A stretch of 64,000 bases of DNA from Curvibacter sp. GWA2_64_110 (GTDB lineage Bacteria > Pseudomonadota > Gammaproteobacteria > Burkholderiales > Burkholderiaceae_C), in assembly GCA_001797315.1 (NCBI GenBank), contig MGPC01000006.1:1-64000 (forward strand). The letters are read 5' to 3'. Below are positions 46,850 to 56,454 of this stretch, piece after piece. The stretch's first letter is position 1. Every line of letters starts with the position of its first letter. The position numbers and the translations under genes are program-made. Below the pieces are notes generated by a model. The model was not told the DNA's origin. It worked only from the letters and a program-made list of their open reading frames with translations, and made no database searches.

Positions 46850-47758
46850 ATGACCAAATCCGGACTCAAAGTAGGCTTCATCGGCCTGGGCATCATGGGC
46901 ACGCCCATGGCCATGAACCTGATCAACGGCGGCCACGTGCTGTTCGTCAACACGCGCAGCAAGGTTGCGCCGGAACTGGCGGAAGCCGGTGCCACGGTGT
47001 GCACCTCCCCGGCCGGTGTGGCCGAGCGCGCCGACATCATCTTCACCATGGTGCCCGACACCCCTGATGTGGAGAAGGTGCTGTTTGGCGACAACGGCGT
47101 GGCCCAGGGCCTCAAGGGCGCCAAGGGCAAGGTGGTGGTGGACATGAGCTCCATCGACCCGATCGCCACCAAGGCCTTCGCCAAGAAGATCAACGAACTC
47201 GGCTGCGACTACCTCGACGCCCCGGTCTCCGGCGGCGAAGTGGGCGCCAAGGCCGCCTCACTCACCATCATGGTGGGCGGCGAGCAGGCCGTGTTCGACC
47301 GCGTCAAGCCGCTGTTCGACCTGATGGGCAAGAACATCAACCTGATCGGCGGCAACGGCGACGGCCAGACCTGCAAGGTGGCCAACCAGATCATCGTGGC
47401 GCTGAACATCGCCGCCGTGAGCGAAGCGCTGGTGTTCGCCTCCAAGGCCGGCGCCGACCCGGCCAAGGTGCGCGCAGCGCTGATGGGCGGCTTCGCCTCC
47501 TCGCGCATCCTGGAAGTGCACGGCGAGCGCATGGTCAAGCGCACCTTCAACCCGGGCTTCCGCATCGCGCTGCACCAGAAGGACCTCAACCTGGCCCTGC
47601 AAGGCGCCAAGTCGCTCAAGATGGCGCTGCCGCAGACCGCCAACGCCGCCCAGCTGATGCAGGCCTGCGCCGCCCTCGGCCACGACCAGGCCGACCACTC
47701 GGCGCTGGTGAAGGCCATCGAGGCCCTGGCCAACCACAAGGTCGCGCCCGACGCCTGA
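46850..47758 (+). CDS. glxR: 2-hydroxy-3-oxopropionate reductase (tartronate semialdehyde reductase)
   Basis: The 302-residue beta-hydroxyacid dehydrogenase reduces tartronate semialdehyde to D-glycerate. KVGFIGLGIMGTPMAMNLI is the NAD(P)-binding start, VDMSSIDPIATK and LDAPVSGGEVGAK the substrate segments, and KVANQIIVALNIAAVSEAL holds the catalytic lysine. It is 17 bp after hyi. A terminator lies about 100 bp beyond. Confidence 0.95.
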   Translation: MTKSGLKVGFIGLGIMGTPMAMNLINGGHVLFVNTRSKVAPELAEAGATVCTSPAGVAERADIIFTMVPDTPDVEKVLFGDNGVAQGLKGAKGKVVVDMSSIDPIATKAFAKKINELGCDYLDAPVSGGEVGAKAASLTIMVGGEQAVFDRVKPLFDLMGKNINLIGGNGDGQTCKVANQIIVALNIAAVSEALVFASKAGADPAKVRAALMGGFASSRILEVHGERMVKRTFNPGFRIALHQKDLNLALQGAKSLKMALPQTANAAQLMQACAALGHDQADHSALVKAIEALANHKVAPDA

Positions 47759-49629: not shown

Positions 49630-49717
49630 GGAGGTGTGGCAGAGTGGTCGATTGCACCGGTCTTGAAAACCGGCAACGGGCAACCGTTCGTGAGTTCGAA
49701 TCTCACCGCCTCCGCCA
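49630..49717 (+). tRNA. tRNA-Ser(UGA)
   Basis: The 88-nt class II tRNA has acceptor GGAGGTG with CGCCTCC, anticodon loop with TGA at 49664-49666, a long variable arm (cggcaacgggcaaccg), T-loop TTCGAAT and an encoded CCA. An accessory patch begins immediately after it. Confidence 0.95.
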
Positions 49718-50653: not shown

Positions 50654-50878
50654 ATGCGTAAGTTTGTCCTAGCGTGCTGCACGCTTGCAGCAATGCTTTC
50701 CTTTTCGAATCAGACCATCGCCGAAACACCTGGTCAACTTGAAGAGCGTCAAAGGCAAGCAGCGGCGGCAGAAGCTGAAGCTCGAATCGCTGAGGCTGAG
50801 GCAAGAATCGCCAAGGCCCGAGCAGAAAAAGCTGCTGCGGAAGCCCAAGAACGCAAAATCAATAACTCATCAAAATAA
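50654..50878 (+). CDS. Small exported alanine/glutamate-rich coiled-coil protein
   Basis: A 74-residue protein: signal peptide (about 1-25: MRKFVLACCTLAAMLSFSNQ, then TIAE) and a highly charged helix built on AEARIAEAEARIAKARAEKA, a near-heptad repeat suggesting a coiled coil. GGAGG lies five bases before the ATG at 50654; another ATG four codons earlier is less well placed. No homologue is recognised. It shares the lower GC of the patch. Confidence 0.65.
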   Translation: MRKFVLACCTLAAMLSFSNQTIAETPGQLEERQRQAAAAEAEARIAEAEARIAKARAEKAAAEAQERKINNSSK

Positions 50879-50941
50879 ACACCTGCGACGCAGACCGGAA
50901 GAATAGCCGCATCAAGAAAACAGCAGAAACCCACTGCGAAC

Positions 50942-50965
50942 AAAAGCCCGGCGAACCGGGCTCTT
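50942..50965. terminator. Terminator between accessory patch and sulfur operon
   Basis: AAAAGCCCGG-cgaa-CCGGGCTCTT is a perfect stem with short A/T flanks between two convergent genes. Confidence 0.75.
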
Positions 50966-51008
50966 GATGCGTGCTCCGAAGGCCAGCGCCCCGTTTAGCA
51001 GGTACCTC

Positions 51009-51467
51009 TCAATGCTTCGGCGCCCCCGCAGCCTTCGCCGCCGCATCAAAGCCCCCCTTGGCCGTCCAATCGCTGAAGCCACCTTGCAGGATGCGCACGT
51101 TCTCGTAGCCCGCCAGGCGCAGCGCGAAGCCGGCCTGGGCTGACAGGGTGCCCTGGTTGCAGTAGATCAGCACCGGCTTGTCCTTCGGGATCTCGTTGCG
51201 CTTGGCCAGCACCTGGCGCCATTCGATGTTCTTGGCGCCGGGGATGTGGCCCTTGTCGAACTGGCCCTTGTCGCGCGCGTCGATGACAAAGAACTTCTTC
51301 CAGTCGTCCTTAGGAATCTGCTCCGGGAAGATGGTGGCGCCGCCGTAGTCGACGAACTCCAGATAACCTTCCATGGCGTCGATGACGGCCTTGTCGTTGG
51401 CATGGGCCGGCAGGCTGGCTGCCGTGATGGCGAGCGCGGCAAGAGAGAGCGAGAGCAGTTTTTTCAT
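51009..51467 (-). CDS. Periplasmic rhodanese-like sulfurtransferase
   Basis: The 152-residue protein has a signal peptide (1-23, ending PAHA) and one rhodanese domain with the active-site loop VLIYCNQGTLSAQ (catalytic Cys), preceded by FVIDARDKGQFDKGHIPGA. It would transfer sulfane sulfur outside the cytoplasm. It is last in a tandem row of six genes read leftwards, 25 bp after the MFS gene. Confidence 0.9.
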   Translation of the reverse strand: MKKLLSLSLAALAITAASLPAHANDKAVIDAMEGYLEFVDYGGATIFPEQIPKDDWKKFFVIDARDKGQFDKGHIPGAKNIEWRQVLAKRNEIPKDKPVLIYCNQGTLSAQAGFALRLAGYENVRILQGGFSDWTAKGGFDAAAKAAGAPKH

Positions 51468-51492
51468 GAATGTCTTTCAGTGAGATAGAGGT

Positions 51493-52806
51493 TCAAGCGG
51501 GGTTGAGCCTCGGGTGGGTTTCTTCGCCCAGCAGCCACAGCAGGCCGCCCGACAGGGCCATGGCGATGGCGACGAACCAGAACGCGCCTTCCATGTGGCC
51601 GGTGAAGTGCGCCACCAGGCCGAGGCCGAGCGCGCCGATGCCGTAGCCGAGGTCGCGCCAGAAGCGGTAGATGCCGATGGCCGAACCGCGCCAGTGGGGG
51701 TGCGAGATGTCGGCCACCGCGGCCGACAGGTTGGGGTACAGCAGCGCCATGCCGAAGCCGGACACCGCGGCCGACAGCGACCACCAGGCCACGCCGCTGC
51801 CCAGCAGCATCAGCGCCACGCCGGCGCCACACAACCACATGCCCAGCACATTGGGTTTGTGGCGGCCGATGCGGTCCGACAGCTTGCCGGTGAAGAGCTG
51901 CGAGCCGCCCCACACAAAACCGTAGACGCCGATGACCCAGCCCACCTGCGGCAGGCTCAGGCCCTGCTGGTAGAGGAACACCGGGTAGAACACCCAGACC
52001 AACGCGTCGACGAACTTTTCCACCAGGCCGGCCTGGCACAGCGCGGCCAGGCGGCGGTCGCGCCAGCTCATCAGCGCAAACATCTGCCAGGTACTGGGGT
52101 TGGCCGGCACATGGGCCGGGTAGCGCGGTGTGGGCCCGCTCACCTGGCCGGCGGCATGACGTGCGCCTTCGGCCCGGGCCCAGGGCAGCGTTTCCTTGAC
52201 GAAAAACTGCGTCAGCAGCAAGGCCGAGACGATGACCACCAGGCCGAAGATCAGCAGGCCCTGGCGTGGCCCGAAGGCGGTGGCCATGTAGCCGGTGATG
52301 ATGCCGGCAATGGCCACGCCCACATAACCGGCGAATTCGTTGAGGCCGATGGTCAGGCCGCGCTGGTCAGGCCGGGTGATGTCGAGCTTGGCGGTCTGCG
52401 TCATGGACCAGGCGAAACCCTGGTTCATGCCCAGCAGCACGGTGGCGGCCACGATCCAGCCCCAGCTCGGCGCCCACAGGATCATGAAGGGAATCGGCAG
52501 CGCACTGAGCCAGCCGATCAGCAGCACACGCTTGCGCCCGATGTTTTCCGACAGGCGCCCGGCCACGAAGTTGAGTGAGCCCTTGACGAAGCCGAAGGCG
52601 ACGACAAAGGAGATCAGCAGCATGAAGGAGCCCTTGGGCACGCCGAATTCGGCGCTGGCCAGCGCCGGCACCACGGTGCGCATCATGCCGATGGTCAGGC
52701 CGACCAGCAGCACCTGCAGCAGCTGGTGGACGAATTGCGCCAGGTTGTGGCGGATGCCGTGCAGGTAGTCCTGCACCTCGTGGCGCGCCACTTTGAGTTC
52801 ACGCAT
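51493..52806 (-). CDS. MFS transporter in sulfur operon
   Basis: The 437-residue protein has about twelve membrane spans and MFS motifs (AGRLSENIGRKRVLLIGW, i.e. loop 2-3; TGKLSDRIGRHKPNVLGMW, loop 8-9). The N-terminal cytoplasmic stretch MRELKVARHEVQDYLHGIRHN is unusually long. Start 52806 is chosen over 52821 because GAGGG lies eight bases before. It begins 11 bp after the YeeE gene, indicating one transcript. A cargo such as sulfite, thiosulfate or organosulfur is inference from context only. Confidence 0.85.
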   Translation of the reverse strand: MRELKVARHEVQDYLHGIRHNLAQFVHQLLQVLLVGLTIGMMRTVVPALASAEFGVPKGSFMLLISFVVAFGFVKGSLNFVAGRLSENIGRKRVLLIGWLSALPIPFMILWAPSWGWIVAATVLLGMNQGFAWSMTQTAKLDITRPDQRGLTIGLNEFAGYVGVAIAGIITGYMATAFGPRQGLLIFGLVVIVSALLLTQFFVKETLPWARAEGARHAAGQVSGPTPRYPAHVPANPSTWQMFALMSWRDRRLAALCQAGLVEKFVDALVWVFYPVFLYQQGLSLPQVGWVIGVYGFVWGGSQLFTGKLSDRIGRHKPNVLGMWLCGAGVALMLLGSGVAWWSLSAAVSGFGMALLYPNLSAAVADISHPHWRGSAIGIYRFWRDLGYGIGALGLGLVAHFTGHMEGAFWFVAIAMALSGGLLWLLGEETHPRLNPA

Positions 52807-52817
52807 GTGCATCACCC

Positions 52818-53870
52818 TCAAGCCCGGCTGGCCGAAGCCTTGTGCGTGGCACGCAGCAGCACGCGATGGGCCAGCCAGGCGCCCAGCACCATGCTGGCCA
52901 CGGCCAACAGGCTCGACACCGACAGCGTGGCCACGCCGGCCATGCCCTGGCCGATGGTGCAGCCCATGGCCAGAATACCGCCCAAGGCCATCAGCACGCC
53001 GCCGGCCAGGTTGCGCAGCATCTGCGGGCCGGTGGGTACCGTCCAGCGAAAGCGGCCGGCCACGACGGCACTGGCGAAGGCGCCAATAAGCACGCCCAGC
53101 ACCGAGGCCGAGCCGAACTTGAGCGGGAAACCGAGGCGTTCCATGGCCAGGTAGCGCACCAGGTCCTGCGCCGGGGCGACGAAGGCCAGCGCCGTCGCGG
53201 CCGGGGTGTCGAACTCGTCGGCGCCGGCAATGCTGACGTACCAGCTGGCGGCCACCAGCAGACCGACCAGCGCACCGGCCAGGGGCTGAGACCAGCCGCG
53301 CCAGGCCGAAGCCTTGGGCGCGGTGAACAGGAAAATGGCCATCAACGCCAGCAAGCCGCTGGTCACCGCCCAGGCCGGCACGCCACCGAACAAGGCCGGC
53401 AGGGAAGCCGCCGGCAGCGCCACGGCGGACCCGCTCAGCCGTTCACGCACGGGGGCCAGCACACCTTCGAGGCTGGCCATGATGGCGAGCACGAACACCA
53501 GCCAGGTCAGCAGGGCCGCGCCCTGGCCTTCGGCCGTGCGCACCAGCAGGCGGCTGGGGCAACCGCCGGCCAGCATCATGCCGGCGCCAAAGAGCAAACC
53601 GCCGGCCAACAGCCCGAGCAGCGGCACGCTGGCGCGCAGGTAGGGGGTGCCGCTCAGGTCCACCAGACCGAAGCCTGCCAGCGCCTGCGTGCCCAGCAGC
53701 GTCACCGCCATGGCCAGTACAAAGGTACGCAGCCGGGCCTGGTCTTCGCCCTCGAAGGCATCGGCCAGCGCGGCGCGCGCGCAGAAGCTGCTGCGCTGAA
53801 GAACGATGCCGAGCAGCACGCCCAGCACCAGCCCGCCCCACAAGGGGAGCTTCAAAGCACCTGTTTCCAA
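52818..53870 (-). CDS. YeeE/YedE family (TsuA-like) sulfur-compound transporter
   Basis: A 350-residue membrane protein of two homologous halves with about nine or more spans. Three conserved cysteines are present in the family positions: RSSFCARAAL (C30), MLAGGCPSRLLVRTAEG, and AMGCTIGQGMAG, as in TsuA thiosulfate importers, where they pass thiosulfate through the pore. The start is TTG at 53870, with GGAG six bases upstream. The DsrE, persulfide dioxygenase and rhodanese genes next to it support a sulfane-sulfur role. Confidence 0.87.
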   Translation of the reverse strand: METGALKLPLWGGLVLGVLLGIVLQRSSFCARAALADAFEGEDQARLRTFVLAMAVTLLGTQALAGFGLVDLSGTPYLRASVPLLGLLAGGLLFGAGMMLAGGCPSRLLVRTAEGQGAALLTWLVFVLAIMASLEGVLAPVRERLSGSAVALPAASLPALFGGVPAWAVTSGLLALMAIFLFTAPKASAWRGWSQPLAGALVGLLVAASWYVSIAGADEFDTPAATALAFVAPAQDLVRYLAMERLGFPLKFGSASVLGVLIGAFASAVVAGRFRWTVPTGPQMLRNLAGGVLMALGGILAMGCTIGQGMAGVATLSVSSLLAVASMVLGAWLAHRVLLRATHKASASRA

Positions 53871-53913
53871 ATCTGTCTCCGTTGAGTTCTATACGTACGG
53901 CTGCCCTGTGGCT

Positions 53914-54645
53914 TCAGGCGGCGATGTTGGCCGCCACGATGCGCGCCATGTCGGCCGGGCGCGGCGGGATGTCGCGCGTGAGTTCGGCCACGAAGTCATC
54001 ACGCGCCATGGAGAGCGCCGGGTTCCAGCGCTTTTCGAAACCGATGGTGGAGGACGGCTTGCCCGAAATGCCGGCGCCGCACACGCTGCCGGCCTGGTGG
54101 CCGGGGAAGATTTCGATCTCGTTGGGCAGGGGCAGCAGCTTGTGCTGCAACACGTCGTAGAGCTGGTTTGCCATTTCCTTTTCCTGGCCCGCCAGGTCCG
54201 GGCGGCCAATGGCGCCGACAAACAGGGTGTCGCCCGTCACCACGAACCAGGGCGTCTCGCCGCGGCGCAGGTCGGACACCAGCAGGCAGATGCTGTCGGG
54301 CGTGTGGCCCGGCGTGTGCAGCACCTCGACCTGCACATTGCCCAGGTCGAGCTTCTGGCCGTCGCGCAGCGGCTCGAAGTCGAACTTCACCTTGCCGAGA
54401 TCCGATTCATGCAGGCAGTACGCGGTGCCCAGCATCTCAGCCAGCCGGCGCCCGCCGGAGTAGTGGTCGGCATGGACGTGGGTGTCGATCACGTGCGTGA
54501 TCTTGACGCCGGCCTGGCGTGCCTGCTCGACAAACCAGTCCTCGTCGCCGGCCACCACGTCCACGGCGATGGCCTTGGCAAAGGTGGCGCAGCCGAAGAA
54601 GTAGGACAGCGAGGCTTCCTTGGTGGCCAACTGCTTGAAAAACAT
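53914..54645 (-). CDS. Persulfide dioxygenase-like MBL-fold protein (ETHE1 type)
   Basis: The 243-residue protein has the metallo-beta-lactamase motif THVHADHYSGGRRLAEM (HxHxDH), HTPGHTPDSICLLV and VTGDTLFVGAIGRPDL, followed by IFPGHQAGSVCGAG, matching the ETHE1/SdoA persulfide dioxygenases that oxidise glutathione persulfide to sulfite. The glutathione-binding arginine region appears present. It lies between the DsrE and YeeE genes in the same operon. Confidence 0.92.
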   Translation of the reverse strand: MFFKQLATKEASLSYFFGCATFAKAIAVDVVAGDEDWFVEQARQAGVKITHVIDTHVHADHYSGGRRLAEMLGTAYCLHESDLGKVKFDFEPLRDGQKLDLGNVQVEVLHTPGHTPDSICLLVSDLRRGETPWFVVTGDTLFVGAIGRPDLAGQEKEMANQLYDVLQHKLLPLPNEIEIFPGHQAGSVCGAGISGKPSSTIGFEKRWNPALSMARDDFVAELTRDIPPRPADMARIVAANIAA

Positions 54646-54661
54646 GCCTTCTCCTGAATTC

Positions 54662-55012
54662 CTAAAAAACCAGCACCTTGTCGGCGTCGACCGTCCAGTC
54701 TGCCAACTCCTTGAGCGTCGAGCGCCGGGCTCCGGCGATCAATTCCCCATCCTTGACGCTGCGGGCGTCCATGCAGGTGCCGCATAAGGCGACTTCGCCA
54801 TTGCGCGCCACCTTGCCCAGCATGAGTTCGATGTTGTAGTACCCCTCGGGCAGCTTCTGTCCGGCACGGGCGCAGCCCACGGCATCCGCCAGCAGAAATA
54901 CGCGCACCTGCTGGCCGTCCCTACCCGCCACGGCACCCGCCAGGCGCAGCGCGTTGTAGGCGCGCTCGCTGCCGTAGGGAGCTTCGTTGAGGATGAAAAG
55001 GGTGCGTGTCAT
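54662..55012 (-). CDS. DsrE family protein
   Basis: The 116-residue protein is a single DsrE/TusD-like fold: MTRTLFILNEAPYGSERAYN, VRVFLLADAVGCARAGQKLP, and VALCGTCMDARSV with a Cys pair (C-G-T-C) near the usual sulfur-carrying position. It likely accepts sulfur from a rhodanese and passes it on. Start 55012 has AGGAAG seven bases upstream. A perfect GGCATTT-c-AAATGCC inverted repeat lies in the gap before it. Confidence 0.87.
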   Translation of the reverse strand: MTRTLFILNEAPYGSERAYNALRLAGAVAGRDGQQVRVFLLADAVGCARAGQKLPEGYYNIELMLGKVARNGEVALCGTCMDARSVKDGELIAGARRSTLKELADWTVDADKVLVF

Positions 55013-55025
55013 GTCATGACTTCCT

Positions 55026-55040
55026 GGCATTTCAAATGCC
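55026..55040. repeat. Small inverted repeat between ArsR-rhodanese and DsrE genes
   Basis: GGCATTT-c-AAATGCC is palindromic and lies 14 bp upstream of the DsrE start; too short-looped for a terminator, it could be an operator or an RNA processing site. Confidence 0.4.
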
Positions 55041-55048
55041 GGCCGTGC

Positions 55049-55726
55049 TCAGACGTCGGGCGAACGCTCCACCGCCATGCCCGCGGCCTGCCATTCGGCT
55101 ACACCGTCGAGCAGCTTGCGCACGCGGTAGCCCTTGCGGGTCAGCAGCCGCTGCGCCTCGTCCGAGAACAGGCAGAACGGGCCGCGGCAGTAGGCCACGA
55201 TGTCGCGGTCCTTGGGCAGCTCGGCCAGGCGGCGCTCGATTTCTGCCAGCGGCATGGAGCGCGCATACGGCAGGTGCGCCACCTCGTACTCCGCCTGCGG
55301 GCGCACGTCGAGCATGACCACCTCGCCATTGCGGGCCTGCGCCAGCAGTTCGGCCCGGTCGGTCTGCACCAGCTTGTCGGGTGCCGAGACGAGCTGGCGC
55401 AAGGCCATCTGCAGTTCGACCAGGTGCTCCTCGCCCACCAGGCGCAGCGTCACCCACAGCTGGGCCACGTCATCGCCGCTGAGGCGGTAGACCACGTACT
55501 TGCCGTCGCGCCGGTTCTGCACCAGGCGCGAGCCGCGCAGGGTCTTGAGGTGGGCGCTGGTGAGCTTGATGTCGATGGACAACGCTTCGGCCAGTGCCTC
55601 GACCGTTTTTTCGCCCTGCGCCAGCAGCTCGAGGATTTCCAGCCGCTTCGGGCTGGCCACCGCCTTGCCGATGCGGGCCACTTGTTCGTAAAGCAGGTCT
55701 TTGAGTTCGCGCTTTTTCAGAGTCAT
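55049..55726 (-). CDS. ArsR family regulator fused to a rhodanese domain
   Basis: The 225-residue protein has an ArsR winged helix (residues 10-90: RIGKAVASPKRLEILELLAQ, LTSAHLKTLRGSRLVQNRRD) and a rhodanese domain (about 125-220) with the active loop VAYCRGPFCLFSDEAQ. The only two cysteines, C180 and C185, are in that loop; the DNA-binding part has none, unlike BigR/SqrR, which use ArsR-domain cysteines. So sulfane-sulfur sensing, if any, should act through the rhodanese Cys. First gene of the operon; the start codon is 1 bp from the palindrome AGAATATTCT. Confidence 0.88.
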   Translation of the reverse strand: MTLKKRELKDLLYEQVARIGKAVASPKRLEILELLAQGEKTVEALAEALSIDIKLTSAHLKTLRGSRLVQNRRDGKYVVYRLSGDDVAQLWVTLRLVGEEHLVELQMALRQLVSAPDKLVQTDRAELLAQARNGEVVMLDVRPQAEYEVAHLPYARSMPLAEIERRLAELPKDRDIVAYCRGPFCLFSDEAQRLLTRKGYRVRKLLDGVAEWQAAGMAVERSPDV

Positions 55727-55727
55727 G

Positions 55728-55759
55728 AGAATATTCTAACGTTTATTGGATTGATTGCA
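55728..55759 (-). promoter_or_regulatory. Putative promoter and operator of the sulfur operon
   Basis: On the minus strand TTGCAA, 16 bp, TAGAAT overlaps the perfect palindrome AGAATATTCT (55728-55737), which ends 1 bp from the ATG. A repressor bound here would block the -10. The mRNA would be almost leaderless. Confidence 0.45.
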
Positions 55760-55788
55760 AGTTCAAAGTTGAACCAAGTCGGGATGTG

Positions 55789-56454
55789 TCAGCTCCAGAG
55801 GTCGAGCGGGGGGTCGTGCACCACGGCGCGCAGGATGTCGGTGCGCGAAACGAAGCCGGTGACGGCGCCGTCTTCGCTGACCACCGGCAGGCCGGGCAGA
55901 TGGGTGTCGAGCAGCACGCGGGCGACGCGGCGGATGTCGGTTTCCTCGGCCACGGCCGGCACCGGCGTCCACATGACTTCGGCCACCGGCTGGTTCAACA
56001 GGGCGCGCCAGACCAGCGAATTGGCACCCGGCAGCGGCAGCTTGTCAGGCTGCAGCAGGTCGGCACGGGTCAGCAGACCGACCAGCCAGTGGCGCGCATC
56101 GACCACCGGCGCCTGGCCCACGCCTTGCTCGGCCAGCCACTGCCAGGCCTCCAGCACCGGCATGCTGGCCGGCACGGTGATGACGCCGCGGCTCATGACA
56201 TCGGCCACCCGGCTGAGCGGATGGCGCGTCGCATGGGCCGCACTGGCCTGCGCATAGGCCGCCAGCGGACTGCGCTGGCCGGCTGGCGCCGCGCCATGGG
56301 ACGGCGCGCCGACCGGTGTCGCCGAGGGCATGATCTGCGGGTTCGACGGTTCGATGCTGCGCGTGCGCGTGACGGCACGCACGGCCGTGACTTGCCGCAA
56401 CTCCTCCATCGCGCCCCTGAAGAGCCGACCTGTCTCCCCGTAGACCGAGAACAT
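55789..56454 (-). CDS. CBS domain-pair protein
   Basis: The 221-residue protein has a disordered N-terminal third, then two CBS motifs (about 85-150: VADVMSRGVITVPASMPVLEAW; 155-221: VAEVMWTPVPAVAEETDIRRVA, ending TGFVSRTDILRAVVHDP). CBS pairs usually sense adenine nucleotides; the partner is unknown. It lies 105 bp after hemW on the same strand, and is divergent from nothing: the sulfur operon promoter follows its stop. Confidence 0.85.
   Translation of the reverse strand: MFSVYGETGRLFRGAMEELRQVTAVRAVTRTRSIEPSNPQIMPSATPVGAPSHGAAPAGQRSPLAAYAQASAAHATRHPLSRVADVMSRGVITVPASMPVLEAWQWLAEQGVGQAPVVDARHWLVGLLTRADLLQPDKLPLPGANSLVWRALLNQPVAEVMWTPVPAVAEETDIRRVARVLLDTHLPGLPVVSEDGAVTGFVSRTDILRAVVHDPPLDLWS

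Follow-up and report, generated by a model that had tools for sequence, protein, structure and literature searches.

Here we describe a six-gene operon that very probably responds to sulfane sulfur, found in the window—positions 1 to 64,000 of contig MGPC01000006.1 (64,000 nucleotides) of Curvibacter sp. GWA2_64_110. The operon lies on the minus strand between positions 51009 and 55726, and its conserved core consists of three genes: a regulator that joins an ArsR domain to a rhodanese domain, a metallo-beta-lactamase (MBL) protein resembling persulfide dioxygenases (PDOs), and a carrier of the major facilitator superfamily (MFS), the last being the centre of the module. We read the operon as a system in which repression would be lifted by persulfides, the persulfides would be oxidized by the MBL protein, and the product anion would be exported by the MFS carrier; for this statement as a whole we give a probability of about 55%.

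A conserved core within a six-gene operon

Six open reading frames (ORFs), all on the minus strand, have the order and place given in the earlier note, which a model had made from the letters of the window alone. Read leftwards, they encode the ArsR-rhodanese regulator (55049–55726), a DsrE/YchN-like protein (54662–55012), the MBL protein (53914–54645), a YeeE/YedE transporter with a TTG start (52818–53870), the MFS carrier (51493–52806), and a single-domain rhodanese (51009–51467). With these starts the intergenic gaps are 36, 16, 43, 11, and 25 bp, in agreement with the 11–43 bp claimed before. All six products match Pfam families above the curated cut-offs (HTH_5 and Rhodanese, DsrE, Lactamase_B, Sulf_transp, MFS_1, and Rhodanese).

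Scanning the genomes of 84,980 species with an alignment of the MFS carrier gave at least 585 relatives; the 80 loci discussed here are the best 80 by MFS similarity. Many of these loci are contigs of metagenome-assembled genomes (MAGs), and the counts and Fisher tests below treat genomes without control for relatedness. By the MFS protein, the closest relative with a title is a Curvibacter MAG (91%). Where at least 2.5 kb of upstream sequence is available (68 loci), bit-score floors place ArsR-rhodanese near the MFS gene in 61 cases, MBL in 49, DsrE in 28, rhodanese in 18, and YeeE in 2; a looser count gives 61, 49, 32, 19, and 2. Among 120 related genomes the carrier is found in 22 and the regulator in 29—every genome with the carrier also encodes the regulator, which occurs in 7 of the 98 that lack the carrier (Fisher p 2.5e-18)—and the two genes lie no more than 3 kb apart in 19 of the 22 (the exceptions are G105, G106, and G114).

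Within the window's genus, the carrier is present in 8 of the 26 genomes searched. A search for the gene order across genomes, as the earlier note had proposed, shows that it extends beyond one strain: all six genes are matched in this order in the window, in G009, G016, and G019, and at locus L064 (L063 being the G009 contig). Among the eight genus members with the carrier, a YeeE match is missing in G018 and G025, DsrE in G006, G014, and G018, and the rhodanese in G018; two genus members have the regulator without this MFS, with another MFS beside it in G008 and a divergent hydroxylase gene in G010. The proposal that the six genes form the unit is rejected, given these missing YeeE and DsrE matches and the presence of YeeE at only 2 of 68 loci; the MFS carrier, which had seemed the least explained member, proves to be the most conserved partner.

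The module is also carried by plasmids, where relatives of the MFS protein occur in 98 records at an E value of 1e-60. On 9 of the 13 plasmids inspected (from Hydrogenophaga, Acidiphilium, Haloterrigena, Halobacterium, Arthrobacter, Deinococcus, Azotobacter, Methylocystis, and Cytobacillus), the gene immediately upstream of the MFS gene is an MBL gene, alone or rhodanese-fused; the pairing reaches haloarchaeal plasmids, and so both Bacteria and Archaea. The Azotobacter plasmid keeps regulator, DsrE, MBL, MFS, and rhodanese in the window order without YeeE. On the other four plasmids the MBL gene is one gene off (Leptospirillum), nearby on the opposite strand (Thiothrix), absent (Hymenobacter), or replaced by a sterol-desaturase-family gene (Limimaricola).

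Counted loosely (E 1e-5, within about 5 kb), the neighbours in the 80 loci include SQR-III-like proteins (6), TauE (9), NifS-type desulfurases (5), a second DsrE (8), and a second MFS (8). A UbiE-like S-adenosylmethionine methyltransferase, for which thiol or sulfide methylation is a possible role, lies near the MFS gene in 18 of the 80 (for example L101:8255-8902) and also on the Azotobacter, Methylocystis, and Cytobacillus plasmids. A small protein with a conserved cysteine (c17; L081:2883-3206 and seven other loci) recurs downstream of the MFS gene in 8 of the 80 and has no Pfam or NCBIfam match.

At the downstream end of the operon, a stem-loop with a T-rich 3' arm (AAGAGCCCGG-TTCG-CCGGGCTTTT, minus strand, 50965–50942) is a probable terminator; it was identified by eye, and a scan of the region did not list it. 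Upstream, a CBS-domain protein gene (55789–56454) begins 62 bp from the regulator on the same strand; it is probably outside the operon, because the predicted promoter sits between the two. A tRNA-Ser (tga; 49630–49717) and a tRNA-Leu (aag; 46926–47020) lie near the operon, and the long minus-strand ORFs over the tRNA-Ser are probably spurious. The host genome amounts to 3.4 Mb in 41 contigs and contains a SoxB above cut-off and five TauE-family genes, none of them in the operon.

A rhodanese-fused regulator and its predicted operator

The regulator has an HTH_5 domain (PF01022; 42.1 bits, cut-off 22), and its sole two cysteines, C180 and C185, bracket the rhodanese loop CRGPFC. This pair is kept as CRGPxC in 72 of 72 aligned regulators and as CRGxxC in all eight plasmid-borne rhodanese-fused ArsR proteins (from Pseudomonadota, Deinococcota, and Bacillota). 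The genome encodes 15 rhodanese domains, and that of the window regulator is the only one whose loop ends in cysteine. All of 13 solved rhodaneses have Arg, Thr, or Ser as the last residue of the six-residue loop, and in those tested this residue is required for thiosulfate cleavage (PMC8533005; this and the other papers given by PMC number are cited from excerpts). With cysteine at the loop end in all 72 sequences, the regulator domain falls outside the pattern of thiosulfate-cleaving rhodaneses; the loop is probably a dithiol persulfide switch, a sensor instead of an enzyme. The protein is likewise not of the SqrR/BigR/SoxR type, which is marked by two cysteines in the ArsR fold; its own cysteines sit in the rhodanese domain, and the BigR model scores 49.4 bits, under its cut-off of 155. 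At two loci (L104:4755-5606 and L115:12268-12930) a second, divergent ArsR-rhodanese copy stands before a TauE-type gene, without the operator described below.

Upstream of the regulator genes lies a palindrome, ATTCYAA-N6-TTRGAAT. Across 90 upstream regions it is present with no mismatch in 24, with at most one in 43, at most two in 56, and at most three in 67, compared with 0, 0, 0, and 2 in shuffled sequences (a dinucleotide walk, or plain shuffling where the walk fails); no other half-site spacing stands out likewise. Regulators with less than 60 bp upstream were left out of this set, start codons were re-chosen via the alignment, and one contig (L063 and L143) is counted twice. The position of the site is constrained as well—of the 67 sites, 23 end 6 bp ahead of the start codon, and 51 end between 2 bp inside and 13 bp before it.

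In the window the predicted operator, AATCCAAtaaacgTTAGAAT, occupies 55733–55752 on the minus strand with one mismatch to the palindrome, and is the sole site in its own genome with at most one. The only sigma-70-like match in 50850–55850 (shuffles expect 0.3) is found at the operon head on the operon strand: a promoter-like site, TTGCAA-16-TAGAAT (55733–55760), whose -10 hexamer coincides with the right operator half and ends 6 nt before the ATG at 55726, the earliest start possible after a stop. Because the operator overlaps the -10 box, a bound repressor would block the promoter; the palindrome over the promoter supports the prediction that ArsR-rhodanese represses its own transcription. 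We infer that the operon transcript is leaderless and starts at about the regulator ATG. The cysteine pair, the operator, the SQR-, TauE-, NifS-, and DsrE-type neighbours, and the excess of SoxB among host genomes (below) all point to a sulfane-sulfur unit with its own regulator, as had been suggested earlier.

A regulon beyond the operon was considered and finds little support: eight other sites with two mismatches exist in the genome (none for a control pattern), by eye several of them inside ORFs and one ahead of a HipB-like gene, and no sulfur gene was recognised beside them from the ORF starts, without a family search. A perfect palindrome (ATTCCTATAAACATAGGAAT; G000:C18:199286-199305, locus L166) lies directly before a HipB-like gene and is probably the antitoxin's own operator.

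Enzymes, carrier, and rival readings

The earlier note had called the MBL protein ETHE1-like. Kinship to PDO-type enzymes stands; however, the protein is better described as CstB/Blh-like without the rhodanese part, as the nearest solved chains are the two-domain MBL-rhodanese proteins 3tp9 (8e-40) and 3r2u (5e-38), the latter presumably CstB, compared with 2e-16 for ETHE1 (4chl). The residues H56, H58, D60, H61, H114, D139, and H183 form the HxHxDH, H, D, H metal-ligand pattern, which is kept, together with C19 and C189, in 56 of 56 sequences. Glyoxalase II has the same residue pattern, so the assignment depends mainly on kinship. The window protein combines the MBL fold and this pattern with PDO-type closest kin; Blh is a two-part protein and the window protein has the MBL part only, scoring 54.6 bits where the Blh equivalog cut-off is 625. 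It is a putative persulfide dioxygenase of CstB/Blh kinship.

In 10 of the 80 loci a protein resembling membrane di-iron hydroxylases (PF04116) adjoins the carrier in the place of the MBL gene, either beside the regulator or between regulator and MFS (L099, L118, L120, L128, L130, L132, L133, L135, L138, and L139; L132 and L133 are near-identical, and L131, at 24.6 bits, is not counted). The two genes are never found together: no MBL gene is close by in any of these ten, and no hydroxylase gene in any of the 56 loci with MBL. The histidine motifs of the hydroxylases are intact. On a quick tree of the MFS proteins the exchange amounts to two changes, in Rhodobacterales and in Gammaproteobacteria. 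Going by position, our guess is that the hydroxylase is an unrecognised sulfur-oxidizing oxygenase. A PF04116 hydroxylase also lies beside an ArsR-rhodanese gene in L150 (G010) and L173.

The remaining partners are found less widely. The DsrE protein (C77 and C80) is nearest to YchN (1jx7) among solved chains and scores 26.8 bits against a TusD cut-off of 89.25. YeeE is full-length, and the three conserved cysteines noted before are borne out: in the alignment with the solved YeeE from Spirochaeta thermophila, C30, C104, and C304 match its C22, C91, and C293. Its description as TsuA-like holds for the family and the aligned cysteines, but not for TsuA itself, as both NCBIfam TsuA cut-offs are far from reached (138.1 of 400 and 92.3 of 645 bits). 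Being missing from most MFS loci and from some genus members, YeeE is taken as a late, lineage-specific addition. The last gene encodes a rhodanese with the loop CNQGTLS; the periplasmic location proposed earlier is consistent with a signal-peptide-like stretch at its N-terminus, seen by eye.

The MFS carrier matches 20 NCBIfam MFS models, all under cut-off, and thus falls into no named subfamily. Seven residues—R43, K75, E157, D267, R381, R384, and D385—are invariant in 48 MFS sequences (alignment A2, from which L117 is left out), and by hydropathy R43 and K75 fall in the first two helices. No cysteine is invariant, C326 being kept in 39 of the 48. Invariant basic residues without an invariant cysteine fit a free anion as the cargo, and the protein may resemble anion carriers of the GlpT type. 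Solved exporters such as NorA, mostly drug exporters, match it weakly and over part of its length. By analogy with known circuits, we consider it an even call whether the carrier exports a sulfur oxyanion.

From this evidence we infer the chemistry, the release from DNA, and the transport of a sulfur oxidation and detoxification operon as follows. At low sulfane sulfur, a dimer of ArsR-rhodanese would sit on the 20-bp palindrome over the promoter spacer and -10 box, keeping the whole unit off along with the regulator gene itself. With rising persulfide or polysulfide, sulfane sulfur would be taken up by C180 in the rhodanese loop, and C185, in place of the usual catalytic loop-end residue, would close a disulfide or polysulfide bridge; the dimer would then leave the DNA and a probably leaderless mRNA would be made. 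DsrE may hand on sulfane sulfur, the CstB/Blh-like MBL enzyme would use O2 to oxidize persulfide, yielding sulfite (or thiosulfate), and this anion would be expelled by the MFS carrier, in the place that TauE has in known circuits. In the window's lineage, YeeE and the periplasmic rhodanese may in addition convert thiosulfate sulfur in the periplasm and import it.

The main rival reverses the direction of transport: the carrier would supply the dioxygenase by importing thiosulfate, tetrathionate, an organosulfonate, or another sulfur anion of this kind, making this a system of sulfur use rather than detoxification. SoxB is enriched in the hosts, being present in 19 of the 22 genomes with the carrier and in 51 of the 98 without it (Fisher p 0.0036, with no control for relatedness), the named hosts are often sulfur oxidizers (Thiobacillus, Thioalkalivibrio, Sulfuricella, and Sulfuriferula), and no sequence feature fixes the direction. 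SoxB is, for its part, near the module in only 2 of the 80 loci, which places the module outside sox clusters. Under import, YeeE, a separate importer-type gene added beside the carrier in the window's lineage, would be redundant, and in known circuits the membrane partner of the PDO is an exporter (PMC9918477, PMC7533328); we regard import as unlikely, if a serious contender. It is improbable that the carrier moves a thiol or persulfide of low molecular weight, glutathione persulfide for example, or that it is a general drug exporter in a sulfur operon: it has weak kinship to NorA- and EfpA-type exporters in the C-terminal half, but a dedicated anion carrier agrees better with its conserved linkage to regulator and dioxygenase and with the invariant charged residues that lie in helices or close to them. 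Metal or metalloid resistance, in which ArsR would sense arsenic or another soft metal and the carrier would expel the metal or a thiol or thio-complex, is very improbable despite the ArsR family of the regulator, the arsenic resistance protein, chrA, and P-type ATPase adjoining the module on the Hydrogenophaga plasmid, and the cation transporters that neighbour it in Thiothrix and Acidiphilium, since the regulator's only cysteines are the two in its rhodanese loop, the remaining partners handle sulfur, and a single ACR3 query from the Hydrogenophaga plasmid had no hit among the 80 loci and 20 fetched relatives. A cluster of the window type is not described in the excerpted study of Thioalkalivibrio under arsenite (PMC6620896).

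Several observations weigh against persulfide-responsive repression coupled to oxidation and export. Export is argued by analogy, and import would give an identical gene order; the nearest solved MFS chains say little, because their matches are weak and partial. TauE stands near the MFS gene on several plasmids as well as in the nine loci counted above, so that the carrier is no plain TauE substitute and any replacement is not strict. Neither the MBL gene nor the hydroxylase is nearby in 11 of the 80 loci, and 3 are too short to tell. As for the operator, 23 of the 90 regulator genes are without a site at up to three mismatches, most alphaproteobacterial regulators have a variant palindrome (ATTCAA...TTGAAT), a lower-scoring regulator subgroup is without a site, among the plasmid regulators 2 of 8 show one at up to two mismatches, and the two half-sites covary weakly (Fisher p 0.04, with no control for relatedness).

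Relation to known sulfane-sulfur systems

One of the closest known circuits is that of S. coelicolor, where CsoR, a PDO, a rhodanese, and TauE likewise supply a thiol-based repressor, a dioxygenase, a rhodanese, and an exporter-type membrane protein, and where sulfite export by TauE has been suggested; the window has ArsR-rhodanese and MFS in place of CsoR and TauE, with DsrE and YeeE in addition, neither of which occurs in the excerpts (PMC7533328). The yrkD...sqr-pdo cluster of B. licheniformis also places DsrE, rhodanese, PDO, and TauE under one sulfane-sulfur repressor; it differs in its CstR-like repressor, TusA, SQR, and second regulator NreBC, and the term MFS does not occur in the excerpted text (PMC9918477). 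The bigR operon (PMC5823870) and yedE1E2-blh of A. tumefaciens (PMC10812762) share an ArsR-family repressor, a Blh-type dioxygenase, and YeeE-type importer genes with the window; however, Blh carries its own sulfurtransferase part, and the excerpts describe no MFS with the operon. BigR, like its kin, has its two cysteines in the ArsR fold (PMC12423496), unlike the window regulator.

The SqrR, SoxR, and sHdrR sensors are, like the window regulator, of the ArsR family, and have two cysteines bridged by sulfur atoms—C50/C116 in the ArsR fold for the SqrR/BigR type, whereas the two cysteines described here are spaced by five positions within the loop of the fused rhodanese domain (PMC12423496). 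The transporters named for SqrR-type regulons are RND, TauE, SoxT, and PmpAB, with no MFS in the excerpted account (PMC12423496). TsuA/YeeE uptake proteins (6leo, 8k1r) resemble the window's YeeE in being full-length members of the family with three aligned cysteines; in contrast to TsuA systems, the operon has no YeeD (TusA-like) gene among its six, and its YeeE stays under the TsuA cut-offs.

In the open-access literature, seen in part and with subscription journals mostly outside it, we recognised no description of an ArsR-rhodanese/MBL/MFS operon, which is no proof of its being unpublished. The operon follows the known general logic of sulfane-sulfur operons; what is new is the predicted rhodanese-loop ArsR sensor and the MFS partner, and new in this analysis are the palindromic operator, the loop-end cysteine of CRGPxC, and the exchange of the MBL gene for a hydroxylase. 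Tentatively, and with considerable doubt, we extend this to a wider proposal: the MFS family may comprise dedicated sulfite/thiosulfate exporters that work with persulfide oxidation across Bacteria and Archaea, the regulator may be a rhodanese turned sensor by its loop-end cysteine, and the hydroxylase may have replaced the dioxygenase in Rhodobacterales and some Gammaproteobacteria.

Sulfur sensing by ArsR regulators without SqrR-type cysteines has been left as "different modes of action" (PMC12423496); a rhodanese-loop sensor, if true, would answer how such regulators sense sulfur. Published sulfane-sulfur circuits, as excerpted here, pair the dioxygenase with TauE or YeeE-type transporters, and a widely conserved MFS partner would put a name to a route still missing for sulfur oxyanions. 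A hydroxylase where the dioxygenase otherwise stands offers a concrete enzymological guess—if true, it would be a sulfur-oxidizing oxygenase that has so far gone unrecognised.

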